From NCBI RefSeq assembly GCF_016522075.1, contig NZ_JAEHFW010000001.1, positions 1,798,001 through 1,862,000 on the forward strand: a stretch of DNA of 64,000 nt, given 5' to 3'. The stretch's first letter is position 1; each line of letters begins with the position of its first letter. The stretch is from Mucilaginibacter segetis (GTDB lineage Bacteria; Bacteroidota; Bacteroidia; Sphingobacteriales; Sphingobacteriaceae). Below the pieces are notes generated by a model, which was given only the letters and a program-made list of their open reading frames with translations, did not search any database and was not told where the DNA came from. Shown in pieces: positions 27,274 through 53,677 of the stretch. The translations under genes and the position numbers were made by a program.

Positions 27274-27303
27274 TATGTTATTTTTGCTATTTAAAGAAAG
27301 AGC

Positions 27304-28011
27304 ATGAGTATGTTTATAGCTATAGAGGGATTGGATGGGTCGGGTAAATCGACGCAAATCAATTTACTGATAAAAAAATTCGAAGCTGAAGGTAAAGCTA
27401 CCAGGTTCGTGCATTTTCCCCGTTTAAACCAAGGTATTTTCGGTGAATTAATCGCTAGCTTCTTGCGAGGAGAATACGGCGCAGTAAATGCGGTGCATCC
27501 CCAATTGGTCGCCTTGCTTTTTGCTGAGGATCGCAAACAGTTTGCTGAAACAATTCAAGGCTGGCTTGCTGAAGGTTGTTACGTATTGGTAGATCGCTAC
27601 GTGTTATCTAATATCGCATTTCAATGTGCTAAAACAAAAGATGAGCATGAAAAAGAAAAGCTGCGCCAATGGATTAATATGTTTGAATACGAATTCCAAG
27701 CTATTCCCAAACCTGACCTTTCATTTTACTTAGAGGTTCCATTTGAATTTACGCAACGTGCCCTTAATGCGGCCAGGGAAGGTGAGCAGCGAAATTATTT
27801 AAAGGGCAAAGAGGATATTCACGAAAAAGACTTGGAATTACAATATGCCGTGCGCAAGGAATACGAGCAGATACTCGAAATGGATGAATCAATCGTAAAA
27901 GTCACTTGCTGTGACGAGCACCAACAAATCAAAAGCATTAAAGAGATTCATGAGCTGATCTTGGATATTCTAGAAACCAAACTCACAATTAAGGCGAATG
28001 GCGTTTTTTAG
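27304..28011 (+). CDS. Thymidylate kinase-like protein
   Basis: 235 residues. P-loop GLDGSGKST at residues 9-17, RFVHFPR after strand 2 (the FPR motif of dTMP kinases), AEDRKQF, the DR motif at D97-R98 (VDRYVLSNIAFQ), and a long LID region (EQRNYLKGKEDIHEKD). These are the marks of thymidylate kinase, which turns dTMP into dTDP. It is unlikely to be the housekeeping enzyme: it is 25 or so residues longer than usual and lies in an island operon with a second nucleoside kinase and a nucleoside phosphorylase. Its last 14 bp overlap the start of the membrane protein gene, so their translation is coupled. Confidence 0.87.
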   Translation: MSMFIAIEGLDGSGKSTQINLLIKKFEAEGKATRFVHFPRLNQGIFGELIASFLRGEYGAVNAVHPQLVALLFAEDRKQFAETIQGWLAEGCYVLVDRYVLSNIAFQCAKTKDEHEKEKLRQWINMFEYEFQAIPKPDLSFYLEVPFEFTQRALNAAREGEQRNYLKGKEDIHEKDLELQYAVRKEYEQILEMDESIVKVTCCDEHQQIKSIKEIHELILDILETKLTIKANGVF

Positions 28012-35704: not shown

Positions 35705-36703
35705 ATGGCGAATTGTAACAAATTGTTCGGCGACTTTACAAAAACGGTCACACCGAACGCAGATGAAATGCAACGAATGAAAAACTCCAGACAAGCTCTG
35801 GAGAAAAAGATCACTGCGAAACTCCAGGAAAAACTGGGCATGACACCGACCTATTACACACAAGGTTCGGGTGCGCATAAAATGCGCACGATTATTATTA
35901 AAGAAAACGGTACTTACGACGCTGACCGAGGTGTTTATTTACCGGAAAAACCAGCTGTAAGCGCGGAAACGGTGCAGAGGTACGTTTATGAGGCTGTGTG
36001 CGAGCATACGGCCGATGGTGCCGAACATCGCAAAAAATGTATACGTGTGTTTTACCGGGGCGCGTATAATATTGACTTTCCGGTTTATTATTCGGTTAAA
36101 GGCGAAGACTATGCCTACATGGCTGTAAAAGGCAATGGCTGGATTAAAGATGACCCCTGGCATATGATTACTTGGTTTGAAGGGTACAAGGATGAGGACG
36201 GGCAGCTTATCCGTATGGTGAAAGATCTAAAAGCCTGGGCTTCTAAATGCAGCTGCAAAATGCCGAGCGGCATTGCGCTCGCTGTGTGGGCTGCCAAGAA
36301 TTTTTCGGCAGTAAAAGACAGGGATGATGAATGTTTATATAATTTATTGAAAGCAATTCAATCAGCTGTGTTTTTTAGCGTTACCTGCTATGCGCCTGTT
36401 GAACCTTACGACGACTTGACGGCAAAGATGAGTGCCGATCAGAAAACGCGTTTTAAAACGGAATTGGACAAATTTGTCGCCGATGCCAAAAAGGCACTGG
36501 ATGAGCCTAACCAGTTAAAATCATCCCGTATTTGGCAGAAATACTTGGGTGATCGTTTTCCAGACGGAGCTGACGAAGATACCGATCAAAAAGCCAGGGC
36601 TTTATATGCGGCGGCCGGTTCCACCAGTTTATTGGGTTATACAGGGCAGTTTAATCATTCTTCAGGCGTTACACCTCAGTATAACCGGAATTATGGCGGT
36701 TAA
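35705..36703 (+). CDS. CBASS CD-NTase (cyclic oligonucleotide synthase)
   Basis: 332-residue nucleotidyltransferase of the cGAS/DncV-like (CD-NTase) family. The active site is complete: G54-S55 in TQGSGAHKMRT, D72 and D74 in YDADRGVYL, and a third acid D124 in YNIDFPVYY. The second half is the helical OAS1-C-like domain (VKDLKAWASKC, SGIALAVWAAKNF). On phage infection such enzymes make a cyclic di- or trinucleotide that switches on the effector. The clade is not certain; the D-x-D-x-GVY form differs from what I would expect of the CdnE enzymes usually paired with STING. Its end overlaps the E2-like gene by 11 bp. The C-terminal tail is Tyr/Asn/Gly-rich (ending NYGG), fitting a substrate for conjugation by an E2-like partner. 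Confidence 0.88.
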   Translation: MANCNKLFGDFTKTVTPNADEMQRMKNSRQALEKKITAKLQEKLGMTPTYYTQGSGAHKMRTIIIKENGTYDADRGVYLPEKPAVSAETVQRYVYEAVCEHTADGAEHRKKCIRVFYRGAYNIDFPVYYSVKGEDYAYMAVKGNGWIKDDPWHMITWFEGYKDEDGQLIRMVKDLKAWASKCSCKMPSGIALAVWAAKNFSAVKDRDDECLYNLLKAIQSAVFFSVTCYAPVEPYDDLTAKMSADQKTRFKTELDKFVADAKKALDEPNQLKSSRIWQKYLGDRFPDGADEDTDQKARALYAAAGSTSLLGYTGQFNHSSGVTPQYNRNYGG

Positions 36704-37121
36704 AAATCTCATACCAGAGCGCCGCCTTAACCCGGCGCACTTGCTGCGTCTGGAAATGGCTTTGCTGCGAAAACATTATGGGTTTTTGTCAGCAAAGCTG
36801 GTAGGCGGCGTTCTGTATGTTTATGGTTATTGCCAGCCGACGGAATATTCGATAACCTATCATTACAAGGTTGTTTACGATCCGAAAAGCGTGCCTAAGG
36901 TTTATGTTACAGAACCTGAGATCGCTTATAAAGATGATATTCACATGTACTCGGATGATCACAGGCTTTGCTTGTATTACCCACCAGATCACAGTTGGAC
37001 AGAGCACTCACGGCTTTTCGATACCATCATACCTTGGACCCATAAATGGTTTTTGTACTACGAAATTTATTTAATCAGCGGCAAATGGGAACACCCATTC
37101 GTCGAACATCGCAAACTTTAA
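36693..37121 (+). CDS. CBASS E2-like protein (type II-short accessory)
   Basis: 142 residues from the ATG that overlaps the CD-NTase stop; a longer frame reaches 48 codons further up inside the CD-NTase gene and is not likely. The sequence is that of the bacterial E2 (ubiquitin-conjugating-like) protein of short type II CBASS: a beta-sheet start (KVVYDPKSVPKVYVTEPEI), the likely catalytic Cys93 in RLCLYYPPDHSW, and the C-terminal DTIIPWTHKWFLYYEIYLISGKWEH, a strong signature of this family. It primes or modifies the CD-NTase, probably through its flexible glycine-ending tail. No E1 or JAB gene is present, as expected for the short type. Confidence 0.85.
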   Translation: MAVKNLIPERRLNPAHLLRLEMALLRKHYGFLSAKLVGGVLYVYGYCQPTEYSITYHYKVVYDPKSVPKVYVTEPEIAYKDDIHMYSDDHRLCLYYPPDHSWTEHSRLFDTIIPWTHKWFLYYEIYLISGKWEHPFVEHRKL

Positions 37122-37125
37122 ACTT

Positions 37126-38079
37126 ATGGAATTTAAACCCAATATATTTATAGGGTCATCAAAGGAAGGTCTATCCGTAGCCCAATTGGTGGAAGCTGAG
37201 TTAACAGATATGGCTGAGATTACCCTATGGACGGTAGCTTTTGAAAATGGCAAAAGTAACTTTGATAATCTCATCAGCCAGATCGCGTTTTACGATTATG
37301 CTATCATGATAGCCACTGGTGACGACGTTATCACATCCCGTAAAAAGCGAAGTAAAGGCGCACGAGATAATGTGTTGTTTGAGTTTGGCTTATTCGCTGG
37401 CGGCCTCGGCCGCTCCCGCGTGTTTTATATGATAGAGGCAAACACCAAACTCCCGAGCGATCTTTTAGGCCTTACCCTGCCTTTTATTGAGCCGAAAAAT
37501 GAAGCGTCTGTTAAAGCGGTAGTTGCAGATATCCGGAAACAAATTACCGGTAAAGAGAAAACCTTTGACCTGGGATTTCTCCCTTCAACGGCGCTCGCAT
37601 ACGGTTACTTTGTAAATTTTATTGAACGCACGGTCGAACGCTTATTAGAGGATAAGAAGGAGGAAAAGGTATTTCATCTAAAAAGCGGTGATAGTTTCAG
37701 TATTACGGAGCTGAAAATAACCATCTTGTTACCTAATGACCTGGATGACGATATGTTTAAAAAAGTTAAGGCCCAGCGTCTGAAGAAGGGCTGGCAACAT
37801 ATGAAAGTCGATCCCAAAGACGTACGTGATTATGATTTCTCTATTGATGTTTCCAAGGTGGCTGCTGGTTTGCTACATCTGGTGGACATACCTTTGACTT
37901 TAAATGCGCTAAATAAATCCATTCGGATGTATGCCAACCGTCAACATATTGGCAAGGATGTTAAAGAAGGGTTATTAGAATACCGGGAGATCCGAAATTT
38001 CCAGCGTACGCTAGAATTTCTTATTAAACAAAGCTCCCTGGCGAGAGGAATTGTTAATGTAGAAATTGTAGATATCTAA
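37126..38079 (+). CDS. TIR-STING CBASS effector
   Basis: 317 residues. Residues 1-150 are a TIR-like NADase domain of the CAP12 type (IFIGSSKEGLSVAQLVE, YDYAIMIATGDDV, ARDNVLFEFGLF with catalytic E86). Residues about 155-317 are a bacterial STING domain: STALAYGYFVNFIERT (ligand-pocket helix), LKITILLPNDLDDDMFKKV, VDIPLTLNALNKSIRMY and LEYREIRNFQRTLEFLI. In known systems (for example Sphingobacterium faecium) binding of cyclic di-GMP drives filament formation and NAD+ breakdown. It starts 4 bp after the E2-like gene and ends the three-gene operon. The two-domain match is strong; the ligand is inferred. Confidence 0.92.
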   Translation: MEFKPNIFIGSSKEGLSVAQLVEAELTDMAEITLWTVAFENGKSNFDNLISQIAFYDYAIMIATGDDVITSRKKRSKGARDNVLFEFGLFAGGLGRSRVFYMIEANTKLPSDLLGLTLPFIEPKNEASVKAVVADIRKQITGKEKTFDLGFLPSTALAYGYFVNFIERTVERLLEDKKEEKVFHLKSGDSFSITELKITILLPNDLDDDMFKKVKAQRLKKGWQHMKVDPKDVRDYDFSIDVSKVAAGLLHLVDIPLTLNALNKSIRMYANRQHIGKDVKEGLLEYREIRNFQRTLEFLIKQSSLARGIVNVEIVDI

Positions 38080-38251: not shown

Positions 38252-40000
38252 TTAATTATCGTAATCAAACCGTACACTTGCCAGTTGTAAAGTCGCAAAC
38301 ATCGGATTTCTGCTTCTCATCCGACCACTTTCTGCAATGAGGTGCAGCTCTTTTTTCGCTCGTGAACAAATCACATAAAGCAACTTTTTCGCAGCGCTAA
38401 CTTGATCAGCTTCATTCCGGTTAGGAATATAGCCTTGTAGTAACCCAAAAGCGATGACTGTATGGAATTCTTCTCCTTTTATGCCATGGCACGTATTGAC
38501 CACTACACCCTGATTGTGGCGGAATAGTCGGCGAAAGCTTTGGATATCGGTCGCATAGTTATATTGTGGGTCGTCCAGCCTGCGTTGGGTGCCCACAAAA
38601 AAATAGGTCCAGTGCTGCTTTAAATTTGCATTAGATTCTATATCGATTTCAAGTATGGCCAGCAATTGTATAAAGCAATCTTCTAAATACTTTAAGCCTA
38701 CGGTATGATCGCTTTTAATTAAATTGAATACGCGCAAAAGTTTCTTTGCCTTACGTTGTTCGCTATCAAAAATGTCAATGCCCATGGTTTGGAGGCTATC
38801 CACCAGTTCATTAGCCCAACGGGTACGCACAAAATACATGTTAGGTGCCGGATCAACTAGAAATAGCCGCGCTACCTTGAACCATATATTTTCCTTGCTT
38901 TTGATAAGTGGAGATAGGCCGATTGCATCAAAATTGACGTCCGGTAATAGCTGTTTAAGTTTGCGGCCCATAGGAATAACCAGCCACCATTGCGGCGCGA
39001 GTACGCATATTTCCTTTTCTGCGATACCGGCCGTTATCCTTTCACTGATAATCTCTGCTATATGCTCAGCCAAGCTGTCTTTATCTACTGTTTCGTTAAA
39101 GGTGATCTGGCCTTGTTGACCAGCGTAAGCACACATGGAACGAATGTCAATAGCTGCGGTTTGATAATGCCGATAATAATCAATCACCCTTTGAGTGCTC
39201 CGGTAGTTTCCCGACAATTTCATTTCATTAATATCGATATTTCCGAAACTGGCTTTGATGTCAGATAGAGAGCGGGCTACGCCGCCTAGAGAGCCATAAA
39301 TAGCCTGGTCTTGATCGCCGACCATAAAAAGTGTGGTGTTATCTAGTTTAGCGGTAATGATTTTGGCTAAAATTTCATATTGCAGTTCCTGCGTATCCTG
39401 ATACTCGTCAACACAGATAACCTGAAAGAAATTATTCAACGTTCTTGCTATTTTAGGATAACTGGCTATGAGCTTATAAGCATAATATAAGAGTTGATCA
39501 AAATCGATCAGCCCCTGTTCTTTCAGCGTGGCATGGTACTCCCGTAAAAAGTGATGATACTTAGATACCTGTTCCGCAAATGACCCGTCAGGTTTTAAAC
39601 GTGTCGTGATATTGTCCCAGGTAAAATCATAGGCCGCCCTCAGTGTGGATAATAATTCCTCCGTTTTGTACTCGTCGGCAATCACGAATCCATTTTTGAG
39701 CTCAGGCAAATAGCCCAAATAGGGCGTAAGTATCCATTCTAAACAAAAAGCGTGTATCGTACCGGTCCATAATTTGGTCGCGTCAATATCCATTCTGTCC
39801 AGCCGTCTTTTGATCTCGTCGGATGCCCGGTTGGTAAACGTAAGCGCCACCACCATTTTTTTGCCCGTGAGGCGTTGGAGTTCGTAAGCGACTTTGTGTG
39901 TTAGCACTCGCGTTTTCCCACTTCCCGGACAAGCTGTGAGCAACACATGATGGTCAGCTACCACCGCTGCTCTTTGTTGATCGGTCAGGCCTTCAAGCAT
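38252..40000 (-). CDS. gajB: Gabija GajB, UvrD/PcrA-like helicase
   Basis: 582-residue superfamily 1 helicase. Motif Q/I: LTDQQRAAVVADHHVLLTACPGSGKTRVLTHK (Walker A near residues 23-30); Ia: ALTFTNRASDEIKRRL; II: VICVDEYQDTQELQYEIL; III: LFMVGDQDQAIYGSLGG; IV: LSGNYRST; V/VI: VVVNTCHGIKGEEFHTVIAFGL and LLYVICSRAKKELHLIA. It is shorter than UvrD (about 720), the size expected for GajB. The gene overlaps gajA by 8 bp on the same strand. In Gabija, GajB responds to DNA ends and joins GajA to form a complex that cuts phage DNA. The pairing makes the assignment. Confidence 0.9.
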   Translation of the reverse strand: MLEGLTDQQRAAVVADHHVLLTACPGSGKTRVLTHKVAYELQRLTGKKMVVALTFTNRASDEIKRRLDRMDIDATKLWTGTIHAFCLEWILTPYLGYLPELKNGFVIADEYKTEELLSTLRAAYDFTWDNITTRLKPDGSFAEQVSKYHHFLREYHATLKEQGLIDFDQLLYYAYKLIASYPKIARTLNNFFQVICVDEYQDTQELQYEILAKIITAKLDNTTLFMVGDQDQAIYGSLGGVARSLSDIKASFGNIDINEMKLSGNYRSTQRVIDYYRHYQTAAIDIRSMCAYAGQQGQITFNETVDKDSLAEHIAEIISERITAGIAEKEICVLAPQWWLVIPMGRKLKQLLPDVNFDAIGLSPLIKSKENIWFKVARLFLVDPAPNMYFVRTRWANELVDSLQTMGIDIFDSEQRKAKKLLRVFNLIKSDHTVGLKYLEDCFIQLLAILEIDIESNANLKQHWTYFFVGTQRRLDDPQYNYATDIQSFRRLFRHNQGVVVNTCHGIKGEEFHTVIAFGLLQGYIPNRNEADQVSAAKKLLYVICSRAKKELHLIAESGRMRSRNPMFATLQLASVRFDYDN

Positions 40001-42128
40001 GGGTCATATATTTGATCAACAGACTTATGGGGTCTTTTGGCAATTGACCCACAAAATAGCTCAATGCTTTATCCTGTTCTTTGATGGCTGAAAATTCCTC
40101 CAAGATTTTTTTATAATCGGTTTTATCCCCGTCAAAAGTCGATTTTGCCAATGCTTTTAGCCGATAACTAACCATTGGGATCAACGCTTGCCAACTTGTA
40201 TCTTTAAATGCAAAGGCAATTGCCTTGATGATATAATCGGGTAATACTGTTAAATGATTTATATTTTCAGAAATCATGATCGCAAACCAGCCTTTGCCAA
40301 ATTTCTGTGCTAATCTCAAAACTTCCTTTCCGGCTACAGCAACATTCGCATCATCCAATTTGGAGCCGATGTCATCCAATGTTTTTTTTGTCTTGTATTC
40401 GTCGGCTATCGCTAACTTAATCTCGTAACTGTTGTTGGCCTGCAAAAAATCCACCTCAAAAGTGTACTTCGCGTAAAATACTTCTATCCAAGTGTTTCCA
40501 TCAATGAAGGCATCCAGTTTGTCTTTCCGGGTTAATCCTGAAATCTGCGAATTGCGGCACCCTTTAATTTCTGCACTCTCATCGTCTTTTTGTGGAGGTA
40601 AGGGAAGGATGGAAGTGTCGAGATCTGTTAAGATGGCGCACTTCTTTTTTACGCGATCATCGTGAAATAATATCGCAATATTTTCGAACCCGGTGCTGCC
40701 GATATTTACCAGCGTGAGCCCTATTTCATCGAGTGTGACGCCAAAAACCGCTTTTATTAGCGCTGGTATTAATATTTGTTCTGCATCACCTTCAACCAAT
40801 AACACGCCTTTTGCAAAGAGTAAGTTAGTTCTTACAGCATCCAAGTAACGTTCAATACCGGTAATTTGAGAGGGCGTTAATCCATTTGAAGGATTGAACA
40901 CGACCGCTTGTTGTTTGCTGCGACTCAGTACGTTCAGTGTACTAATCCGACTTACTGACGATATTTGTGTCGAATGTGTAGTGATTAATATTTGTGTATT
41001 ATGGCTATGCAGCTTTTGAAATAACGTTTTCTGTATATGCGTATGAATATGAGCCTCAGGTTCTTCGATGAGTAAAAAATTGGCAATTTTGTTGTCTGAT
41101 TTAACTTTTTCGTATTCTAATAATTTTAAAGACAAATAAATCAAGTTGGCACCGCCAAGGCTGAGTTCCCATATTTTGCCTTGATAACCGTCTTCGTCAG
41201 GATCGCCGACCCATAGTTTGAGCGACTGCAACAATTTTTCCATATCTGCTGGCAATTCTGATTTGATATCTATGGTCGGTGCATAGGTCTCGCCAACCGC
41301 TTGCCTGATACTATCTGAGATGCCTTGGGACACGCTCTTTACCTCATCAAGTTCAGTGATCTCGGCGTTCAACTCGTCAACCTTTTTAATGATATCATCT
41401 TTTTTAGCGACATCGATCGTTTTTTCCTTACCTCTTAACAAGTTCAATAAAGGATTATCTTTATAAGACCGGAGATCGGCCTCAACATCTCTCAGCGCCT
41501 TAATAAAAGTGCAAGACAACTCGTTGGGTAACGAAACTCCATAAAGCCGGATCCCATAAACATCGTTTTCTTGTTCATCAGGATTTGGAAAGACGATGTT
41601 CTCGAAATCACCCACATAATCTCTATAAATGTCATCATCCGAAAAATCACCGTTTCCTCTGCCCCGAAAAGTTAATTCATAATCATTGATCGTCAGGTAA
41701 TCTAAAATATCTTTTAATCCGGCTTGGGTTTTATAGGTGTCTTGACTGTAATCATATAATTCTCTTCGTTTCGCATCCTTTGGTCGTAATATAAGCGAAT
41801 AACTACCTTTAGAACTATCCAATTCATCCATTGTACCGGCCTTATGCATTGCTAAGACCTGAGCCTCCTCGCTGACATCGAGATCGCCAAATTCAAGTTG
41901 AATTATGATCCAATGGCCACGCCAATCACCAATCGACCGGTTAAAATCGGATTCATAAAAACGGATGTGCCGGGGCATGGTTTCATCGATCAGGTAACGT
42001 AACGCTTGTAAAATGTTCGTCTTTCCAGAGCCGTTTTCACCAATTATCGTATTTACTCCTTTTGAAAAGCTAAGGCAAATATTTTTGAAGTTCCGAAAGT
42101 TCCGGATAGATAGTTTTGAAATGTACAT
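39993..42128 (-). CDS. gajA: Gabija GajA, OLD-family ATPase/TOPRIM nuclease
   Basis: 711 residues from the ATG at 42128; the open frame extends 45 codons further but that part is not conserved in type (MYISKLSIRNFRNFKN is the usual OLD start). Walker A GENGSGKTN at residues 30-38; ABC signature and Walker B: LSLGGANLIYLSLKLLEYEK and FLLIEEPEAHIH. The TOPRIM domain starts VLLVEGDAEQILIPAL (E446 is the first metal ligand), followed by KCAILTDLDTS. OLD nucleases of Gabija nick DNA and are held in check by nucleotides. It lies upstream of gajB. A divergent HEPN-like gene begins 86 bp away. Confidence 0.9.
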   Translation of the reverse strand: MYISKLSIRNFRNFKNICLSFSKGVNTIIGENGSGKTNILQALRYLIDETMPRHIRFYESDFNRSIGDWRGHWIIIQLEFGDLDVSEEAQVLAMHKAGTMDELDSSKGSYSLILRPKDAKRRELYDYSQDTYKTQAGLKDILDYLTINDYELTFRGRGNGDFSDDDIYRDYVGDFENIVFPNPDEQENDVYGIRLYGVSLPNELSCTFIKALRDVEADLRSYKDNPLLNLLRGKEKTIDVAKKDDIIKKVDELNAEITELDEVKSVSQGISDSIRQAVGETYAPTIDIKSELPADMEKLLQSLKLWVGDPDEDGYQGKIWELSLGGANLIYLSLKLLEYEKVKSDNKIANFLLIEEPEAHIHTHIQKTLFQKLHSHNTQILITTHSTQISSVSRISTLNVLSRSKQQAVVFNPSNGLTPSQITGIERYLDAVRTNLLFAKGVLLVEGDAEQILIPALIKAVFGVTLDEIGLTLVNIGSTGFENIAILFHDDRVKKKCAILTDLDTSILPLPPQKDDESAEIKGCRNSQISGLTRKDKLDAFIDGNTWIEVFYAKYTFEVDFLQANNSYEIKLAIADEYKTKKTLDDIGSKLDDANVAVAGKEVLRLAQKFGKGWFAIMISENINHLTVLPDYIIKAIAFAFKDTSWQALIPMVSYRLKALAKSTFDGDKTDYKKILEEFSAIKEQDKALSYFVGQLPKDPISLLIKYMTHA

Positions 42129-42214
42129 GTGAAACCGATAAAGTAGGTGTTTTAATTTAAAAGTATTTAGTGTAAAAATACCAGTTTTTATTTTGATAAA
42201 ACTTAGTTTAGGCC

Positions 42215-42844
42215 ATGGGTATACTTGAAACGATTGATACTGAGCAGCGGGCCAGTTTAACAACCACCATAAAAAAACTTACCGAACGCTGCCGGACAGA
42301 AATTCCTATGATACGGAAATCCGCAAAAAGGGCAATGGCAACCTATCCGGAAAATAGTGAGGGTTATCATTTCGGAACCGTCCCGCTACGTATGCGCTTA
42401 GCGGTTGTAGACATGAATGTATTGTTTGAGAAATTGCTCAATGAAACAGACCCGGACGCACAGAACTTGTTAGCCAGGACATTGAGTACGCATTTCTACG
42501 AATTTTTTGAAGATGTGCCGGCCATGCTCGGTAAAAAATTTCGGACAGTTATTCAGCGTTTTCCGCCTTGGGAAAAAGTGGAGGCGGACTTGAATATCCT
42601 GGTCAGCAGTTTTAACGATACCAAACGTGCCTGTATCGAACGGCATAAGTTGGTGCGGCATAATGTGGGTGCTCATCGCGATGAAGATGGTATGTTACAA
42701 GCGAAGATCATCGATAATATCAGTATGGAGTGGACTGTATCTGATTATTTCCGGCTAGCCGAATGGATTGTTAACTATTTAGATTTTGAGTTCCGGATAG
42801 CAGTATTGGCAGAACGCATAATGGACGGAACTTATAAACAATAA
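42215..42844 (+). CDS. HEPN-like protein
   Basis: 209 residues, helical. Near residues 140-155 it has KLVRHNVGAHRD, an RX5H motif like the catalytic core of HEPN ribonucleases, with long helices before (DLNILVSSFNDTKRACIERH) and after (YFRLAEWIVNYLDFEFRIAVL). No partner nucleotidyltransferase (MNT) lies next to it. It starts 86 bp from gajA on the opposite strand and is followed 23 bp later by the transposase. It may be a lone toxin or a Gabija accessory; the motif is seen, the function inferred. Confidence 0.55.
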   Translation: MGILETIDTEQRASLTTTIKKLTERCRTEIPMIRKSAKRAMATYPENSEGYHFGTVPLRMRLAVVDMNVLFEKLLNETDPDAQNLLARTLSTHFYEFFEDVPAMLGKKFRTVIQRFPPWEKVEADLNILVSSFNDTKRACIERHKLVRHNVGAHRDEDGMLQAKIIDNISMEWTVSDYFRLAEWIVNYLDFEFRIAVLAERIMDGTYKQ

Positions 42845-44430: not shown

Positions 44431-47400
44431 CTATAGCAAGCTAGAGAATGAAAAACGGCATACCAGATCAATGTTGGCTTTGAAAACCGACATAGTCAAT
44501 GGTATGATTTTTTCACTGAGATTATAGATAGTTTCGACCTGGGCAGGAATAGTGAGTAAGTCGCTAAGCGAAAGGGTAGATTCGCCTTCGATAAGTTTGC
44601 TTTCCTTTAAAGTCGCCAAGAATGAAACGTTATCATCAGCCGATTTGACCATGTGGAATAAGCCTTCTACGAGTTGTGGTCGCCCTGTGATTACCCCTAG
44701 TATAATTATGGCCGCATAATAATAGTCTAACTCGTTGTACAAAGTCACCTGAAAACCCTCATGCGTCCGTAGAATACGGAATATATTGATGAATCGTTTG
44801 ATAGTACGTGGCGAATCACCGATCAGAAAGGCCAGCCCTTGCATAAAGTTTTCTTCTTCGACACTAATTAACAGTTTGGCAGTATCAACGGGTTTTGAGG
44901 GTTGGGCAATCGAATTTTCTTTGGTTATTTCTTTTCGGAAGTCGGTGCTTTCTTTTGACTGTATATTTTCGGGCTTAATGTCGCGAAGTCCTGTATCCGC
45001 TAGACTGTTCGTCGCCAGTGTAGACGGCGCTAGTTGTTCCATCGCCGAATTATCTTCCTCCACCTTCAGTTGCGCGGCTATGAGGGAGGCTTTGCTTTTT
45101 TGGTTCATTGGTTTGAGTGCGAACGGAATTTGGAATATTTTCTCAAGATAATCAGAACTAGTGGCGATGACTTCCTCATTGTCATTTTTATCCTTTTCGA
45201 CTTTGCGGCGGAAACCATTTTTAAGATGCGGATAATGTAGATGCAATGCATTATGCATCCATCGGGGATCGACACCAACAACAACTACAAAAAGCGGAAA
45301 TGCCAGAAGCAGGTTCATCGCCTCCAGCACTTTAACAACGGTGTCTTCTGAACATCGATCCAAGTCATCGATGTATAAAATAATCCGTTCTAATTCAAAT
45401 TGAAGTTTTGTAGTCGGCTGTCCGTCGTTCATGGTTCGGGCCTTTCTCTGTTGACCAAGTAGGTGATCGAGTTGTTCGAAGTCGCGCCGCACCCAGGAAA
45501 TGATGCCGAGACTGTTGGCATAACGTTCATCGGCTACCCGGCTTTCAATGAAGTGAATAACTTTGCGGCCCGATTTGATATCGTCAATGTCCTCTTTTAA
45601 CTTCTGCTGACGGAGTTCTAATTGTTCTATCTTGGTAGTTAACTTTGCAGATTCCGCTTTAGCGCCGGAGATTTGATTGTTAAGCTGCTGCCTTTGTTCC
45701 AAAAACTCGTCCTCCGCTCGCTTTCTTAATCGGCCCAGTGTATCTTTTAAAGGCAAGAGTTTTTCATAAACCAGCTTTAACTGCTTCATGGCCGGGTGGA
45801 TAATATTCAAGCCCGTTGCCAGTAAACCGCTAAGCGCGTAGATCAGGTATTTATACCGATCAAATAAAACACTGACGGCGACGGATACAGTTTTGAAATA
45901 ATAGCTGATCCCGATCAATACCGCAAACGTTATGAATAGAAATATCGTCCGCTTACTGGCGAAGAACGGACCTGATATTTTTACCGATTTGATGAACCGG
46001 TCCCAATAGCTATCAACCTCGCCTAATTGTTTACTGATGTCATCTACCGCGTCAATTTTGAGGAATTTGTATTCATTCTTTAAATCCGTTATTTGCTTTT
46101 GCACGGCCGCATCGCCCATAAGTTCCTGTAGAATAACCGATATGGATAAATTACTAAGCTTGGCAGATTGTGTGGAAACTTTGGTATCGAAGACTGCTTT
46201 TTCGTCAGTGAGCAAAGTAATGCGGCGATCCACTTCCGTTTTTTCGCTTTTGGTTTCCGCGATCAATTCTTTAGTAGAGCTGAGGTTTTGAAAGAGGTCC
46301 TTAAGTTCATCCGGGCGGTCTTTTCCGTATTGCTCCAGATCTTCAAAGATTTTCGTGATTAGGCTTGCCCAAAGGTTGGCATCGGAATAATGCCAGGAAT
46401 TAAAATTGATTTGAAGGACCTTTTTGCAAAACGTAGTTTGAGGGCCAGCGCTCAATTCATCGATTTTTGACTGTAGCTTATTCATAAAAAAGCTCTTGCC
46501 GCTACCCCAATTACCGAAAAGTCCGATAGCTAACGGGGGAGTTACTTCTTTGTAGACCATTACTGCCGCGAGTGCATCTACATCCTTTTGAAACCCTAAG
46601 CTATCTTCAATATCCTTAGCCGCACTGTCGGAAAAAACACGCACCAAACTGGCCTTATTACCTATCAATTCCCCGGGCTCATTAATAGCCCGCTGCATAT
46701 CTTCGTAGACAGGGGAAAATTCGGATTCGCTGATTTCGAATAATCGTTCATCACCGGACTCGAATCGGTCGTTAAGGGTACGGATAAGCGAAAATTGTTC
46801 GGCGGTAAAATTATAACGGTAACGTATTAAGCTGATTCTAAATAAAAAGCGCTCTCTGGCATCATTTTCTCGTTCCAGTGCCCGTGTCACCTGAAAGATA
46901 AAAACGATATTCTCATCTTTTGAATTATCAATGGCAATACCCAACTCACCGACCCTTATTGCTCTAAATCTCTCATATTCCGGGCGCGGCATCCTGGACT
47001 GGTAATCTGCATGAAAAAAAACAACCGTATCTTCGCTTAGATCATCTGTCGCCCAATTCGGCCCGTTAATTTTTAACAACCAAAATTTAGCATGAGGAAC
47101 AATTACGGTGTCTTTAAGTAATATCTCCTTAGCCAACTCGCGGTATTCCGCCCACTTCAGAATGTCAGACAATATCTTATCCCAGCTGAATTCGGCCTGA
47201 TAAAAGGTTGTTACAATCTGATCAGGCATTCCTGCTTCATCAAACGCTTTCCTGACGTCATTTCTCGCGCGTTTACCATAGCCAACGGTCATGTCATAGG
47301 TTTCCAGGATGGTAACCTGTCCATTTTCGTTTTTAAACTTATCCTTATTGTTCAGTGCTAGATTACCCAACTGGCTGCCTAGGTTAACCGACTCTACGAC

Positions 47401-48021
47401 CAAATAGCTATTGTCCGGACGGGCCACGCTGCGCAGCACAAATTTGTACTCATCATTGGAAAAAAGAAAGCCATCCGTATCCCAGGAACCGCTGGGCGTG
47501 CCGTAAGCAATATCTGTGTGACCCTCACACCGCCAGCCTGAAGGTAGAATTTGCGGTTGCAACCGATCCAGATAATTATAAAATTCCTGCGCAAAAATAA
47601 ATGGCGACATATCAATCTTTTTTGGAGCGCTTATTGATTTTTCGTAACGAGCTAAATGACGCTCTAAACTTGTCAAAATATGCAATCGGCCATTCTCTGT
47701 TAGCGGATATTCAAAATATTCGACTTGATAATTGGCTAATTCTTTAGGTATTTCGATGCCACGTTCAACGAAAGGTAGAACAGGTATACCAGCTTGCATA
47801 GCCATGCCCAATTCCATAAGTAAACTAGACGAAAAAGATCCCTGCGCCGTTAAAAACAAAATAAAAATATCAATACCATTCAGGCTAGTCTCCAACACTA
47901 AGTTATGTGGCTCAGTGTCTTGAATGATTTTGACTTGATGGTTTAATTGATTAAGCTTAGTGATGATAGGTGCGATAAGATCTCGGTCTTTAGCACTATA
48001 GGAAATAAATATATTAGGCAT
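44431..48021 (-). CDS. TIR domain-KAP P-loop NTPase membrane protein
   Basis: 1196 residues, the largest gene here. Residues 1-125: TIR domain (FISYSAKDRDLIAP, LNGIDIFILFLTAQG, and E70 in LLMELGMAM as the NADase Glu). Residues about 140-460: unrecognised region. From about 490: KAP NTPase with Walker A at GLFGNWGSGKS (K509) and Walker B ILYIDDLDRC near 880, typical VVVVGVDPRW after it. As in other KAP proteins two membrane helices are inserted (about 690 IFLFITFAVLIGISYYF and about 730 YLIYALSGLLATGLNIIHP), flanked by coiled coil (SAKLTTKIEQLELRQQKLKE). A TIR on a KAP ATPase suggests a membrane-anchored NAD-depleting immune protein. Monocistronic, 136 bp from the next gene. Confidence 0.88.
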   Translation of the reverse strand: MPNIFISYSAKDRDLIAPIITKLNQLNHQVKIIQDTEPHNLVLETSLNGIDIFILFLTAQGSFSSSLLMELGMAMQAGIPVLPFVERGIEIPKELANYQVEYFEYPLTENGRLHILTSLERHLARYEKSISAPKKIDMSPFIFAQEFYNYLDRLQPQILPSGWRCEGHTDIAYGTPSGSWDTDGFLFSNDEYKFVLRSVARPDNSYLVVESVNLGSQLGNLALNNKDKFKNENGQVTILETYDMTVGYGKRARNDVRKAFDEAGMPDQIVTTFYQAEFSWDKILSDILKWAEYRELAKEILLKDTVIVPHAKFWLLKINGPNWATDDLSEDTVVFFHADYQSRMPRPEYERFRAIRVGELGIAIDNSKDENIVFIFQVTRALERENDARERFLFRISLIRYRYNFTAEQFSLIRTLNDRFESGDERLFEISESEFSPVYEDMQRAINEPGELIGNKASLVRVFSDSAAKDIEDSLGFQKDVDALAAVMVYKEVTPPLAIGLFGNWGSGKSFFMNKLQSKIDELSAGPQTTFCKKVLQINFNSWHYSDANLWASLITKIFEDLEQYGKDRPDELKDLFQNLSSTKELIAETKSEKTEVDRRITLLTDEKAVFDTKVSTQSAKLSNLSISVILQELMGDAAVQKQITDLKNEYKFLKIDAVDDISKQLGEVDSYWDRFIKSVKISGPFFASKRTIFLFITFAVLIGISYYFKTVSVAVSVLFDRYKYLIYALSGLLATGLNIIHPAMKQLKLVYEKLLPLKDTLGRLRKRAEDEFLEQRQQLNNQISGAKAESAKLTTKIEQLELRQQKLKEDIDDIKSGRKVIHFIESRVADERYANSLGIISWVRRDFEQLDHLLGQQRKARTMNDGQPTTKLQFELERIILYIDDLDRCSEDTVVKVLEAMNLLLAFPLFVVVVGVDPRWMHNALHLHYPHLKNGFRRKVEKDKNDNEEVIATSSDYLEKIFQIPFALKPMNQKSKASLIAAQLKVEEDNSAMEQLAPSTLATNSLADTGLRDIKPENIQSKESTDFRKEITKENSIAQPSKPVDTAKLLISVEEENFMQGLAFLIGDSPRTIKRFINIFRILRTHEGFQVTLYNELDYYYAAIIILGVITGRPQLVEGLFHMVKSADDNVSFLATLKESKLIEGESTLSLSDLLTIPAQVETIYNLSEKIIPLTMSVFKANIDLVCRFSFSSLL

Positions 48022-48157: not shown

Positions 48158-49108
48158 CTAGTATGATGTCGTTTGTATCCGACTGGGACGAAAAATAAAT
48201 TCCCGGTGATAGTCGAGGTAATGTCTTTGTGCGGTGTTGAAGCTGCCGACGTTTTGGGGTGTTAACTTCCAGATGGCGACAGTGGGGTCGGTGATGGGCG
48301 GGACGGCCCAGAGGACGTCGCCGTTGTTTTTGAAGGATAGCCAGCCTTTGTCGAATAGGCAGTCGACGTGGGGGCTGAGGAGTAAGCCGTTGTTGCCGTC
48401 CAGTTTTTCTTCGTTGTCGGACAGGCGCCAGGGTTTGATGTGGCTGGCGATGAGGAATTTGACGTCGCTGGCGCCGGTTAGCCGGCAGTGTTTTTCGATT
48501 TTTAGCAGGCGTTGGCGGTAAATACCCTGGCCGACACGGGCTTTGATCAATTGAGTTTTTTCGGTTTCCCGGATCGGTGAGGCAGCGATTTGCTGTTCAG
48601 CGGCATTGTTAATTAAACGGCTTTGAACGTCATCCAGACTGTCGATCGTTACGGCGTTCGATCTGGAGATCAAGCCTAAAAGTAGTTCCCCTAAGTTAGC
48701 GGAGATCTCTGCTAAGTAAATGCTTTGGTTACCGTTGCCGTTTTGTTGTAAAGGCGAGTACTTTTCAGGCAACAGGCGTTGAAAGAGTTCGATGTCCCTT
48801 TTGGGGGCGAATGGCTGTTCCAGTTCCAGCCAGAAGACCTTCACCAGGTAACCGTCGGGATTCCACTGATCGCCGGTGCGGCCGAATTCATCGGGGATAT
48901 TGGAGGCGATACAGCCCGATTCAATGATGCCGACGGCTTTAACCCGGCCATGTGCATAAGAAAAGATGACATCACCCGGTGAAGTGAGGGTCATGTTGAA
49001 ATAGCCCTGGTTGAAATGGCCCAGCTTGTTCGCTTTCGGTGACCAGATATAGCCGCCGCCCAGCTCTTTCCGTACGGTTTGCTTATGATTGACCCACCAG
49101 AATTTCAT
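48158..49108 (-). CDS. EVE-like domain-HNH endonuclease
   Basis: 316 residues. The N-terminal 140 are EVE/PUA-like: WWVNHKQTVRKELGGGYIWSPK, DVIFSYAHGRVKAVGIIESG; such domains read modified bases. The C-terminal part is an HNH nuclease: QRLLKIEKHCRLTGASDVKFLIASHIKPW (His pair after the Cys) and NGLLLSPHVDCLFDKGWLSF, the NxxxLxPxxHxxFDxG pattern. The combination is that of modification-dependent (type IV-like) restriction enzymes. Its start overlaps the stop of the upstream HNH gene by 4 bp (49105-49108), so the two work as a pair. Confidence 0.88.
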   Translation of the reverse strand: MKFWWVNHKQTVRKELGGGYIWSPKANKLGHFNQGYFNMTLTSPGDVIFSYAHGRVKAVGIIESGCIASNIPDEFGRTGDQWNPDGYLVKVFWLELEQPFAPKRDIELFQRLLPEKYSPLQQNGNGNQSIYLAEISANLGELLLGLISRSNAVTIDSLDDVQSRLINNAAEQQIAASPIRETEKTQLIKARVGQGIYRQRLLKIEKHCRLTGASDVKFLIASHIKPWRLSDNEEKLDGNNGLLLSPHVDCLFDKGWLSFKNNGDVLWAVPPITDPTVAIWKLTPQNVGSFNTAQRHYLDYHREFIFRPSRIQTTSY

Positions 49109-50148
49109 ACCCGAATATAAGGCAATAAAGTCTCAAATCCATTATTCCGGGCTATCGTTGCCAACGGTTGTAATTGTTCCCATACCCGGTCGCGTTCAAA
49201 TAAGTGGAGGTCCGGAACAATCGTCAAATAATCCTCCAGGAATTTATGCTGGGGCGCCACTTGTTGTATGACTTCTAAAGCAGATCGTTGTAAATTGAAA
49301 TACGGTTCGAAATAAGTGTCGAGCGGGGGTAGTTTGTCGCTTTTGCTGCTGTTGAAGGCCCGGTCGGCGGGGATGAGGTTCCACATCAGGTCATGGGAGA
49401 CGAAGGCGTAGGGGAGGAAGTGCTCGACGGCATAGTCGCCAACAGTGAGTCGCTTATGGGTATAGATACAATCCACACTGCCCAGTTCAGCCAAAACGAG
49501 GTCCCAGAATTTGCGTTGTTCGGTCAGGGCTTTGCGTACCGGCAGTTTGATCAGTTTGTTCGGGATATCGGGTACGTTCGGGTTCTTGGCCTGCAGATAA
49601 ACCGCCAGGTTCCAGTAACAAAAGTTTTTCAGGATACGGGCATGGCGCTGCAAATAAGTTACCCAGGCCGGATTCAACTCGATATGATCGGCGTAGAGCG
49701 CATACAAACAGTTATTTTCAAAACGCTGGGAAGCCCGGTAAGCCGCCTGGCTATCCGCTGCCCGGAACCAGGGACTCAGAAAACGGTGCGGTACCTCGCC
49801 GTTAAAATAACGCAATGCACGTAAAGTAGCTTTGTTGCTGGTATGGGCTAACTGGTTGAAAATAAATATCCTATCCGCATCGATCGTCAGGCTTTCCAAA
49901 CCCCTGATCGCCTGAATTGCCTCCTGCAACTTATCCTGCTTGCCAAACGAAACCTTGAAATAATTCACCGTATACCAGGCATGCGCCACCATCTCCGCGA
50001 ACAAATCCCGCTTAGCGATCGTCCTTTCACCCAGCTCCACCCGCCCCAGCAAAGCCAGAAACCAGTAAAACTTATACGTCGCCGAAGTATTTTTAAAACA
50101 CCCCGCCAGCAAATGCACCGGTAAACCCTCGTGATCAGGCAAGTCCAT
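49105..50148 (-). CDS. HNH endonuclease family protein
   Basis: 347 residues from the ATG at 50148; a TTG five codons earlier is also possible. The N-terminal two thirds is helical (NTSATYKFYWFLALLG at the start recalls several HNH proteins of defence loci). The nuclease is at residues about 250-285: LTVGDYAVEHFLPYAFVSHD and LWNLIP-like MWNLIPADRAFNSSKSDKLP, the EHFxP...H..WNLxPxxxxxNxxKxxxLP pattern of the HNH fold. It is the first gene of a two-gene operon with the EVE-HNH gene, so it may be a partner with different target sense. Confidence 0.83.
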   Translation of the reverse strand: MDLPDHEGLPVHLLAGCFKNTSATYKFYWFLALLGRVELGERTIAKRDLFAEMVAHAWYTVNYFKVSFGKQDKLQEAIQAIRGLESLTIDADRIFIFNQLAHTSNKATLRALRYFNGEVPHRFLSPWFRAADSQAAYRASQRFENNCLYALYADHIELNPAWVTYLQRHARILKNFCYWNLAVYLQAKNPNVPDIPNKLIKLPVRKALTEQRKFWDLVLAELGSVDCIYTHKRLTVGDYAVEHFLPYAFVSHDLMWNLIPADRAFNSSKSDKLPPLDTYFEPYFNLQRSALEVIQQVAPQHKFLEDYLTIVPDLHLFERDRVWEQLQPLATIARNNGFETLLPYIRV

Positions 50149-50239
50149 GCTCAAATATAGCAATTAAGCCTTCCGCTAACGGTGACAAATATTTTAAAAA
50201 TGTTATTGTGTATATTGCATCTACCTTCAAACAATTATC

Positions 50240-51715
50240 ATGATTTACTTTTCAAATTATTTTCGTGTTCAGGAAGATATTATTGACCGATATGGGGCAT
50301 TTAATATTTCATTAATCAACGATTTACCACTGTTTATTGACCCTTTCTTATTATTTGGAAGCCAAAAGAAAGAGTATCAGCAGCTCCATAAGGAGATTGT
50401 AGACTATTTGATTTTTTTGCGGGAAAAGGCGGCTTTAGGAAATATCAGTGACGGTGAAAAAAAAGCTTGGTTTATGTTTCCGGAAGTTGAGCAAACATGG
50501 CTTGGTTTCAGCGTAATTGGCAATAGTGGTCGTGGTTTAGGACCTAAGTTTGCAAATTCTTTATCTATCAATATGCCCGTTGTGTTTGCTGATTTAGGTG
50601 AAGAAAAAATTTCTCAGACTTCTCACCTCGAAAAAGCTGCCTTATTTCAAATTGGTATTGGAAAGGATAATATCAGTGATTTTACCACTAACCTGATTAA
50701 GAGGTATTTATTGGAGTATACAGAAAAATTTACGCTTAGTCACATAGCTGCAGCAGACCGAGCGAAATTTAAGGTGGATAAGGTGTATTTCGATTATGAT
50801 TTGAAACGTTGGATGCCCAAAGAATTTACACTGCCGCTTTTTCAAGATGACTATGTTTTGCTAACGCCTGTCGAAATACTTACAAAAGATGAAAATTGGA
50901 TTAACGGGGGCGACCTGCATAGCCAATTCCATAAGGTTTGTAACTCAATAGCGAATAGCCAATTGAGAAGTGAAGTAAACAACTATTTCAGTAACAAACT
51001 ACCGCGGATAACCAAATCTCATCCGAAGATCACGCAGAAAGAAAAAAGCGCCGCTATAATAGAAACACTGAATAAATTTCCGAAGATCATCGATTATTAT
51101 ATTAAACTCAAAGAGGGTAATAAAGACGGTGCAAAACGGATGTCTAAGCAAAAAGTGGAAGAGGTTAAATCACTTTTCGTAAATAGCGTGACGCGTTTAC
51201 TTGACAAACTAAAAGAAAATACGGAGTTTTTCGTTCCGACTACGGAAGATTCTTTTACGGCCAGTTTAAAGCGTGTCAATTTCATGAAACATGTTATTGA
51301 AAAGAATGATGGTTATCGAATTTTCTACGTCAAAGGCCAGCCAATTAAGCGTGAACAGGACGTCCAAATTATTTTTAGATTAACATGGCATGCAAGCACC
51401 TTTGATGTTAATCGAGAAGTCAACAATGGAAGGGGGCCGGTTGACTATGCGGTTTCTAAAGGAGCCGCAGATAAGACGCTCGTCGAATTTAAACTTGCTT
51501 CTAATAGTCAGTTAAAAAAAAACTTGCAAAATCAAGTGTCAATTTATGAGGAAGCTAACAACACCACGAAGAGCATCACGGTCATCGTTTATTTTACTTT
51601 ATATGAGTTACAAAGCCTTAAGTTATTATTGAAGGAGCTAAAACTGACTGAAAATAAAAGTATCATACTCATTGATGCACGGAGTGATAACAAAACCTCA
51701 GCTTCAAAAGCTTAG
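50240..51715 (+). CDS. Predicted PD-(D/E)XK nuclease
   Basis: 491 residues. The C-terminal domain has a PD-(D/E)XK site: GRGPVDYAV with D402, then TLVEFKLASNSQL with E416 and K418 (ExK) and a following helix NLQNQVSIYEEAN, a typical order for restriction-like nucleases. The first 250 residues (FRVQEDIIDRYGAFNISLINDLPLFIDPFLLF...) are not recognised and may be the target-sensing part. It is divergent from the HNH operon across 91 bp and 74 bp upstream of the next gene, in the dense defence part of the island, so phage or plasmid restriction is a fair inference. Confidence 0.75.
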   Translation: MIYFSNYFRVQEDIIDRYGAFNISLINDLPLFIDPFLLFGSQKKEYQQLHKEIVDYLIFLREKAALGNISDGEKKAWFMFPEVEQTWLGFSVIGNSGRGLGPKFANSLSINMPVVFADLGEEKISQTSHLEKAALFQIGIGKDNISDFTTNLIKRYLLEYTEKFTLSHIAAADRAKFKVDKVYFDYDLKRWMPKEFTLPLFQDDYVLLTPVEILTKDENWINGGDLHSQFHKVCNSIANSQLRSEVNNYFSNKLPRITKSHPKITQKEKSAAIIETLNKFPKIIDYYIKLKEGNKDGAKRMSKQKVEEVKSLFVNSVTRLLDKLKENTEFFVPTTEDSFTASLKRVNFMKHVIEKNDGYRIFYVKGQPIKREQDVQIIFRLTWHASTFDVNREVNNGRGPVDYAVSKGAADKTLVEFKLASNSQLKKNLQNQVSIYEEANNTTKSITVIVYFTLYELQSLKLLLKELKLTENKSIILIDARSDNKTSASKA

Positions 51716-51789
51716 TTTAATTAGCAGATAATCATTTAGTTGTTTCTGATTGTAATCATTGTTATATTCGGATTACTAAACCGAATAGC

Positions 51790-52468: not shown

Positions 52469-53677
52469 TTACTCTGCTTCAGTCACCAGGGTTAAGGCTT
52501 GCCCGGTATAGATTTTTTTGACCGGTTGCATGTCGGTGCGGACTTTGGTGTCGGTGACGCGTGCATAGTGCTGCGTGGATTTGATGCTGCGGTGGCCGAG
52601 CATCTGGCCCACGGTTTCGAGGGGGACGCCATTGGTCAGGGTTACCGTCGTGGCAAAAGTATGGCGCGCGCAGTGATAGGTCAGGCGTTTGTTCAGGCCA
52701 AGTTCCCGGGTGATGTCTTTGAGGTAGGCATTGGCTTTCTGGTTGCTGATGTTGGGCAGGAGTTTCCCTTCGGGCCGGCGGGGATGGTGTGCATAATGCT
52801 GGAGGAGCAGTTTGGCCGGGGGCAGGAGGGGCACGCGTACCCGGTTATTGTTCTTGATGCGGTGGGTTTGGATCCAGGTTTCGCCGTTTTCCGTGACCAG
52901 GTCCGTAGCTGCCAGTTTTACGGTGTCCGCATAGGATAGGCCGGTATAGCAGCTGAACAAGAACAGGTCGCGTACCACGCTCAGCTTTTTGGAAAAGCGT
53001 TTGGTCGCCAGCCGGGCGAGTTCCTCGCCGGTCAGGTAATCGCGGTGCACTTCCGTCGCCCGCATGCGGTGGGCGATGAAAGGGTCGCGCTGCAGCCAGC
53101 CAAAATCCATCGCGATCCGCACGATCGTGCGCAGCTTTTTAATAATTTGTATCGCCGTATTATTTTGGACATGATGACCGGTCTTTAAATAATACTCATA
53201 GTCTTTCACGAACTGATGATCTAATTGATCTAAACGCAAGTCGTCGGTTTGATACTTTAGTTGCAGAAACTTCTTCAACGCCTTATAACCGGCTTGATAT
53301 TTCTCCAGCGTGGCTTTCGAATAGTCCTTCCCGATCAGCCCGATAATATAGTTCAACTGGTAATTCCAGACCTCCGACAACATTTTCGAGGGCTCCAGTT
53401 CTTCCCCCTGCATCAATTTCCGGACCTGCCGCGCCGTAAAAGGCTTCCCCGCCGCGTACAATTCCTGCCGGCACTGGTGTGCCCGCGCATACAACAAATC
53501 CAGCCAGGCATTGATACTCCGGGCCTCCTCCTTATTCCCCTTCACCCGGCCGGCCTGCTTATCCCAATCCGCCGGCCTGCACTTCCGCTGCGTCGACAGG
53601 TCTTCCGTATGCCCGTTCACCGACAGCCGCCCATAAATCATGCTAAGTTCCGCCTGCTTATTCTTCGGTGGTTTCAA
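52469..53677 (-). CDS. IntDOT-like tyrosine recombinase (integrase)
   Basis: 402 residues counted from TTG at 53677. SAM-like and catalytic domains are clear: LFLFSCYTGLSYADTVKL, HCARHTFATTVTL, LGHRSIKSTQHYARV with the nucleophile Tyr. The first catalytic Arg is a Ser in TGLSYAD, as known for IntDOT of Bacteroides elements. It marks the right end of the island. Start is unusual: the N-terminal strand FRFYLKPPKNK begins before TTG, and 22 open codons upstream contain no ATG or GTG; they run back to the poly-A of the excisionase gene, see the separate entry on the frameshift site. Confidence 0.9.
   Translation of the reverse strand: MKPPKNKQAELSMIYGRLSVNGHTEDLSTQRKCRPADWDKQAGRVKGNKEEARSINAWLDLLYARAHQCRQELYAAGKPFTARQVRKLMQGEELEPSKMLSEVWNYQLNYIIGLIGKDYSKATLEKYQAGYKALKKFLQLKYQTDDLRLDQLDHQFVKDYEYYLKTGHHVQNNTAIQIIKKLRTIVRIAMDFGWLQRDPFIAHRMRATEVHRDYLTGEELARLATKRFSKKLSVVRDLFLFSCYTGLSYADTVKLAATDLVTENGETWIQTHRIKNNNRVRVPLLPPAKLLLQHYAHHPRRPEGKLLPNISNQKANAYLKDITRELGLNKRLTYHCARHTFATTVTLTNGVPLETVGQMLGHRSIKSTQHYARVTDTKVRTDMQPVKKIYTGQALTLVTEAE

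Follow-up and report, generated by a model that had tools for sequence, protein, structure and literature searches.

A candidate immune receptor of Mucilaginibacter segetis that joins a TIR domain and a KAP NTPase to putative readers of modified nucleic acid

A stretch of 64,000 nucleotides from Mucilaginibacter segetis (contig NZ_JAEHFW010000001.1, positions 1,798,001 to 1,862,000; hereafter the window) contains a gene on the minus strand (44431..48021) whose product of 1196 residues carries, in this order, a TIR domain, an McrB-type N-terminal domain, an EVE domain and a KAP NTPase. This domain anatomy is well supported, and the domain content, the kept motifs, the modules common with McrB proteins and the defence neighbourhood are established computationally. 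We tentatively propose, as a reading slightly more apt to be wrong than right, that the protein is a single-protein immune receptor in which modified phage nucleic acid is read by sensors of the type IV restriction kind, the KAP NTPase assembles at the membrane and the TIR domain consumes NAD. Of such a receptor we infer the ligand, the assembly, the enzymatic output and the role in phage defence.

In the proposed mechanism, the EVE and McrB-type domains would bind modified phage nucleic acid, recognizing a modified base and/or its sequence context. Binding would drive the ATP-dependent assembly of a ring or cluster by the KAP NTPase, which would be anchored in the inner membrane by a hydrophobic insertion. 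Assembly would gather the TIR domains, leading to the consumption of NAD+ (or to an ADP-ribose-type signal), and NAD+ consumption would stop the infected cell. In effect, the protein would be a type IV restriction sensor with its nuclease output replaced by a TIR domain.

Translation of the gene showed an intact open reading frame with an ATG start, and its Pfam matches confirmed the unbroken TIR-KAP chain described in an earlier sequence-only reading. A transposase gene ends 15 bases from the TIR-KAP gene. The window protein (RFSFSSLL) and its relative L068 (RFSFRTLLK), from Cognataquiflexum aquatile, terminate at the same place, indicating that the adjoining transposase gene has not truncated the protein. 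A single-sequence search of the Protein Data Bank (PDB) with the whole protein returned mostly T4 lysozyme matches, which were taken as chance, and the full-length model gave nothing at E <= 0.001 with Foldseek alone. Coiled-coil rows in the fold list (XptA2 and a Tc toxin pore) were also taken as chance matches. The Z scores given below for the TIR domain and the KAP core come from a second-look structural alignment over Foldseek's own match list.

The sequence-only reading had left about 320 residues between the TIR domain and the NTPase without assignment. A domain search of residues 125-490 assigned most of this block, which holds an McrB-type N-terminal domain followed by an EVE domain. 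Residues about 131-303 (47113..47631, minus strand, as for all domains of this protein) share 38% identity with the N-terminal part of an McrB in another Bacteroidota genome, G344. Because this homologue matches McrB (NCBIfam PRK11331, E 5.9e-32, 111 bits against a model cut-off of 637) and adjoins a gene for McrC (PF10117, E 8.5e-58), the region is identified by sequence as a domain that is used at the N-terminus of McrB as well. In E. coli McrB the N-terminal position is that of the recognition domain (PMC11090510; this and other papers given by PMC number are cited for the part of their text that was accessible). Searches with the domain gave no match in the PDB, among plasmids or in the viral collection. 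A third candidate genome, G081 (E 2.9e-4, one stop inside), was excluded from the count, its frames of more than 150 residues looking unrelated. Fold matches of the domain in a low-confidence model, to 1yb3 at Z 7.9 and to a secretion chaperone at Z 7.5, were given no interpretation. At the G344 McrBC locus (L125:298-6686), the McrBC genes are preceded by one for a protein in which an N6-methylase is fused with an ATPase of the histidine-kinase type, and by one for an AlbA/Schlafen-type protein.

Residues about 308-440 (46702..47100) are assigned to the EVE domain, a member of the modified-base reader superfamily shared with YTH; base binding by this domain is putative. Six EVE-type rows, the window protein not among them, made a profile against which the window protein scored 51.4 bits, compared with 8.5 bits for the best of 500 shuffles, and hhalign of the region with EVE gave 96.4%. 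A 6-row profile including the window found the solved EVE structures 2ar1 (E 9.3e-5), 1zce (E 1.7e-4) and 2gbs (E 0.019). The predicted model of residues 126-469, of low confidence (mean pLDDT 50), matched the Mmi1 YTH domain (Z 10.5), 2ar1 (10.4), 1zce (9.9), VcaM4I (9.8) and 2eve (9.6), as well as THYN1 bound to 5-methylcytosine DNA (9.5) and the McrB N-terminal domain 6n0s (8.6). As the formerly unassigned block holds both an McrB-type domain and an EVE domain, modified nucleic acid is the likely trigger. The earlier picture of an immune-type TIR-KAP protein stands as to its defence setting, its TIR glutamate and its Walker motifs, whereas the sensor is likely not the KAP module alone, as had been supposed.

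The TIR domain occupies residues 1-125 (47647..48021). Pfam TIR_2 matches residues 4-96 with an E value of 1.4e-5 and 26.0 bits, just below the cut-off of 28, and a 3-row profile (the window, L068 and the plasmid protein L033) matches solved TIR domains with a best E value of 1.5e-7. Residues 1-127 of the model, in a region with block pLDDT of about 43-72, were superposed on the TIR domain of SPARTA with Z 9.3-9.6 and a root-mean-square deviation of 3.0-3.1 over 109-111 aligned residues (17-20% identity), the best TIR match among those listed. The putative catalytic glutamate to which the sequence-only reading had pointed, E70 (47812..47814), is aligned with a glutamate in L068 and L033, and is thus invariant in all three TIR-KAP proteins. 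It lies in a helix of the model (65-76), in agreement with the catalytic glutamate expected on the third helix of a TIR domain. An NAD+-cleaving activity is plausible.

The KAP NTPase core extends over residues about 478-1196 (44434..46590). Pfam KAP_NTPase matches residues 482-1085 with an E value of 8.9e-29 and 101.1 bits, the cut-off being 20. K509 of the Walker A motif (residues 500-510; 46492..46524) and D885-D886 of the Walker B motif (residues 880-889; 45355..45384) are invariant in 56 aligned rows, comprising the window, L068 and 54 of 77 other listed KAP cores. The model is confident in the strands and helices of the core NTPase. Between the two Walker motifs lies one clear hydrophobic segment, at residues about 690-712 (45886..45954), where 19-residue windows from 685 to 720 have Kyte-Doolittle means above 1.5. 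A second, weaker segment (residues about 724-746; 45784..45852) scored below 1.5 at about 724-745 in the same scan, and starts a long coiled-coil-like helix. The membrane segments that had been claimed for the insertion are therefore supported in the first case and, for a pair, plausible. Hydropathy windows at 41, 67 and 894-904, within the TIR domain or beside Walker B, were set aside as more likely buried core. The same interval holds long predicted helices (581-624 and 724-816), and further helices of the model lie at the C-terminus beyond the KAP match. Among the chains compared, the modelled core matched RdrA (Z 14.8), ORC2 (11.9), BrxC (11.2), the plant resistosome NRC4 (10.6), the Dark apoptosome (10.1) and Avs3 (9.8), so that the nearest folds of the predicted core are those of immune or apoptotic ring-forming NTPases and of ORC/Cdc6.

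We then ask what stands ahead of this core in its relatives. A KAP-core scan of genome contigs from 84,980 species gave 419 relatives, the best 80 of which were used. The 83 proteins classified are 78 of those loci, 4 plasmid proteins and the window protein; L059, L094, L034 and L039 were left out for want of a single frame with both motifs, and L004 as the same locus as L071. Since the classification profiles were seeded from members of this same set (14 macro-like rows, 16 of a module that we call module A, and 5 EVE rows plus L030), the counts of N-termini are not independent of the seeds. N-termini were taken from the first possible start codon, and those of L086 and L105 probably begin too early.

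An EVE domain was found in 10 of the 83 KAP-core proteins (a strict count that omits L073, whose weak EVE match overlaps its module A), module A in 41, and one or both in 48. A macro-like module was present in 32, all but one of them also with module A, and a TIR domain in three (the window, L068 and L033). Pfam alone, at E <= 0.01 among 81 N-termini, gave EVE in 6, TIR_2 in 3 and Macro in 3. Other N-termini carried WD40 repeats or EAD11 and, by eye, trypsin-like and HEAT-like regions. These counts suggest a recurring plan in which a putative nucleic-acid reader precedes the KAP core, with a TIR domain or a macro-like module before it in some proteins. The readers also occur with McrB. In G030, a genome from the same genus as the window, a protein that begins with module A is an McrB (E 5.4e-33), and in G305 the McrB GTPase has an EVE domain ahead of it. 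Module A matches were obtained in 4 of 60 genomes, the G030 protein alone being shown to be an McrB; in G029 the matching protein is, by eye, another ATP-binding protein, and the remaining two matches are partial. Equating module A with EVE was rejected (hhalign 4.2% between the two profiles and 0.2% against the window EVE), and the two were counted apart. A 'ClpN-like' profile was dropped, as it mostly caught a linker common to the rows. The macro-like module joined to the same KAP core occurs at L071 and 31 other loci, Aquimarina and Flavobacterium being examples of the Bacteroidota concerned, and module A follows it in 31 of the 32; the group resembles a defence family for which we found no description.

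When the 83 cores were placed on a tree, the window protein grouped with L068 (TIR-EVE) and L106 with a support of 93, and the plasmid TIR protein L033 fell in the other half, beside L098. The TIR-KAP fusion may have arisen repeatedly, TIR may often have been lost, or the fusion may have a single origin, which one change of TIR label suffices to explain by the tree tool's count, one that ignores 48 unlabelled rows. The L033 gene (L033:1171-9938, on a Sinorhizobium plasmid) has a HEAT-like middle by eye and lies beside DarT, macro, DUF4062 and SIR2-family genes. On the Microscilla plasmid pSD15 (L034:3233-5146), reader-like repeats, again by eye, stand before a KAP start that ends early, and restriction and toxin-antitoxin genes adjoin. 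Among viral contigs the KAP core had just 2 matches, and none of the phage records matched the TIR-KAP protein.

Several results weigh against the proposed receptor. The window TIR domain is divergent. Besides its score below the Pfam cut-off, it had no PDB match at E <= 1 when searched alone, and the stretch from strand B to strand C (second to third strand) is about 4 residues shorter than in L068; its activity may therefore be lost. Of 395 genomes, 2 gave convincing scores for the McrB-type domain, and one of these is the genome of the window itself, so that the link to McrB depends on one homologue. The EVE assignment depends on relatives and on the fold of a low-confidence model, since the N-terminal half of the window protein had no Pfam EVE match at E <= 1. 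L106, a close relative, has a peptidoglycan-binding-type domain instead of TIR-EVE. The reading of the commonest KAP N-terminus as a macro domain is weakly supported, and for this reason we label it macro-like: the best PDB match of its 14-row profile was the macro domain 2dx6 at an E value of 0.02, and the best Pfam Macro match among the 81 N-termini (E 0.0024) fell on L103, outside the 32. One member, L099, gave macro domain matches at E 0.021 and 0.066 and Pfam ThsA_Macro at E 0.033, and six other members scanned singly gave no macro match. Characterized KAP proteins bear on the matter in both directions. In favour of the receptor, escape from Tmn was traced to a single mutation in nmad5, a phage DNA-modification gene (PMC11846954), and QatA is a DNA-binding oligomer (PMC13279940). 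Against it, deletion of nmad5 does not give escape, sensitivity to Tmn persisting (PMC11846954), and cells that had lost QatA were still not fully susceptible (PMC13279940).

The weak points of the TIR domain lend themselves to another account with the same sensors, in which the KAP membrane module is itself the effector and perturbs the inner membrane on assembly, the TIR domain serving mainly in assembly or signalling with little or no NADase activity. A TIR domain that is shortened and below its Pfam cut-off would fit such a role, as would a KAP core that stays constant across the family while N-termini vary; Tmn, moreover, has a KAP core with two membrane segments (PMC11846954). We nevertheless consider this account unlikely, given that E70 is kept in all three TIR-KAP proteins and that the TIR fold matches that of SPARTA. 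The macro-like module of 32 relatives, if truly a macro domain, would also point to ADP-ribose chemistry.

The resemblance of the core to Avs3 and other STAND-type NTPases, together with the C-terminal helices beyond the KAP match, raises a further alternative. A phage protein could be the trigger, recognized by the KAP core or by those helices as terminase is by Avs, with the EVE and McrB-type domains only holding the protein on DNA or the nucleoid. However, it is at the N-terminal region that the family varies, and EVE or module A was found there in 48 of the 83 proteins, which makes a phage-protein trigger distinctly improbable in our estimate.

The genomic setting of the TIR-KAP gene was examined for signs of defence and mobility. 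In 2-kb bins from 24 to 52 kb of the window, G+C content is 35-45% except for 49.5% at 48-50 kb; it is 51-59% from 52 to 64 kb, and mixed in the first 24 kb. This low-G+C stretch contains a CD-NTase gene (DncV-like/SMODS) followed by a TIR-STING effector, that is, a CBASS with STING (35705-38079, plus strand), just before Gabija gajB/gajA (38252-42263, minus strand; PADLOC E 7.1e-283 for gajA and 1e-222 for gajB). The transposase gene also lies within it, as does a gene that matches AbiU2 weakly (19.2 bits, where the cut-off is 26.8), and a phage-type integrase gene (52469-53677) follows. A 16-base exact direct repeat occurs at 29639 and at 51756, the second copy near the integrase gene; it was the one 16-base pair obtained when the integrase side was searched against the first 30 kb. 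The two copies could flank an inserted segment of about 22 kb that carries the CBASS, Gabija and the TIR-KAP gene.

Upstream of the TIR-KAP gene and in the same direction are two HNH genes. The nearer, for an HNH nuclease (48158..49108, minus strand; Pfam HNH_2 E 1.6e-10, PADLOC HNH and REase_II) ends 136 bases upstream, and the second (49105..50163, minus strand; Pfam HNH_4 E 7.6e-8) overlaps it by 4 bases. The nearer HNH protein scored 9.0 bits against the EVE profile, the best of 500 shuffles reaching 5.5, which is only suggestive of an EVE-like start. Both HNH genes are perhaps functionally linked to the TIR-KAP gene. Elsewhere in the window, a 491-residue protein (50240-51715, plus strand) had no Pfam match at E <= 0.1 and matched PDC-M36A, a candidate defence family of PADLOC, over residues 21-271 (E 1.4e-19), and genes like those for pyrimidine nucleoside phosphorylase and thymidylate kinase (25759-28011, plus strand) lie in the low-G+C stretch.

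The setting speaks against a non-antiviral role as a host stress regulator dependent on RNA or DNA modification, which the action of EVE/YTH domains in RNA biology as well (PMC7641849) might suggest. The protein is sporadic: the rest of the genus was represented by 36 genomes, not all of them complete, of which 35 had no match and one had a weak match over 97 residues. The neighbours include CBASS, Gabija and an integrase. The gene for L068 lies inside a type I restriction locus, with hsdS (the specificity subunit) on one side and GmrSD on the other, and with hsdR and hsdM at a greater distance. We regard such a role as very improbable.

If the proposed receptor is real, it joins two strategies usually treated apart, the cutting of modified phage DNA by type IV restriction and TIR-based NAD depletion. 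It would also supply a KAP NTPase with a likely class of ligand, in a family whose mechanism in defence is still open, and phages with and without DNA modification offer a direct test of that ligand. A bolder claim concerns the wider class of KAP receptors built with McrB readers. Membrane KAP NTPases with borrowed, interchangeable McrB recognition domains (EVE, module A and the McrB-type domain) and NAD or ADP-ribose domains (TIR, and probably macro) might form a broad class of nuclease-free type IV receptors that convert modified phage DNA into a cell-wide metabolic shutdown without cutting. We regard this generalization as possible and rather doubtful.

TIR effectors, KAP defence proteins and EVE and McrB readers are each already known, and we found no description of a TIR-KAP or EVE-KAP fusion receptor. 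A literature search turned up no TIR-KAP, TIR-EVE, EVE-KAP or macro-KAP system, a weak negative since most subscription journals lay outside its coverage; as far as it goes, it did not reveal the fusion as an already named system, which would have counted against the sequence-only reading. The accessible text of an EVE-domain census (PMC7641849) has 0 occurrences of 'kap', and that of a census of McrBC systems (PMC11090510) has 0 of 'tir' and of 'kap'. KAP has been noted as an alternative NTPase in conflict systems (PMC8195603, PMC10853773), and KAP NTPases are among the targets of diversity-generating retroelements (PMC10907252). The best named KAP relative of the window protein is QatA of qatABCD (PADLOC 61.2 bits, NCBIfam 87.8 bits), a DNA-binding protein that is heptameric or octameric (PMC13279940). 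The NCBIfam score is, however, far below the equivalog cut-off of 600, and neither QatB, QatC nor QatD was found among the window neighbours scanned. PifA, named by the sequence-only reading as one of the KAP NTPases, is at most a distant relative and scores lower than QatA (PADLOC 44 bits, best stretch 469-585, with a profile for which no cut-off is given). Tmn, an anti-phage transmembrane NTPase, is of the KAP family like the window protein; it has two membrane segments, and its sensing is tied to a phage DNA-modification gene. Its mechanism is called unexplored, and, compared by description only, it differs in that the accessible text mentions no TIR, EVE or McrB-type domain (PMC11846954).

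Among fusions with TIR, L068 (33% identity) carries a TIR domain (83 bits), an EVE domain (E 3.7e-8) and a KAP core arranged as in the window protein, but is without the McrB-type domain and sits in a type I restriction locus. SPARTA (short Argonaute with TIR-APAZ) provides the best fold match among those listed for the window TIR domain, and its NADase is reportedly switched on by target nucleic acid. By contrast, the window protein has no Argonaute or APAZ match, and its putative sensor is of the EVE/McrB type. The comparison with McrBC is one of shared sensor-type modules and a different predicted output. The McrB GTPase domain was not found in the window protein, Pfam gave no nuclease domain in it, and McrC (PF10117) had no match in eight other proteins encoded between 38252 and 52467. 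The window protein resembles one McrB in its McrB-type domain (38% identity) and has an EVE domain like that before the McrB GTPase of G305, and in place of the McrBC output it carries TIR and a KAP NTPase.

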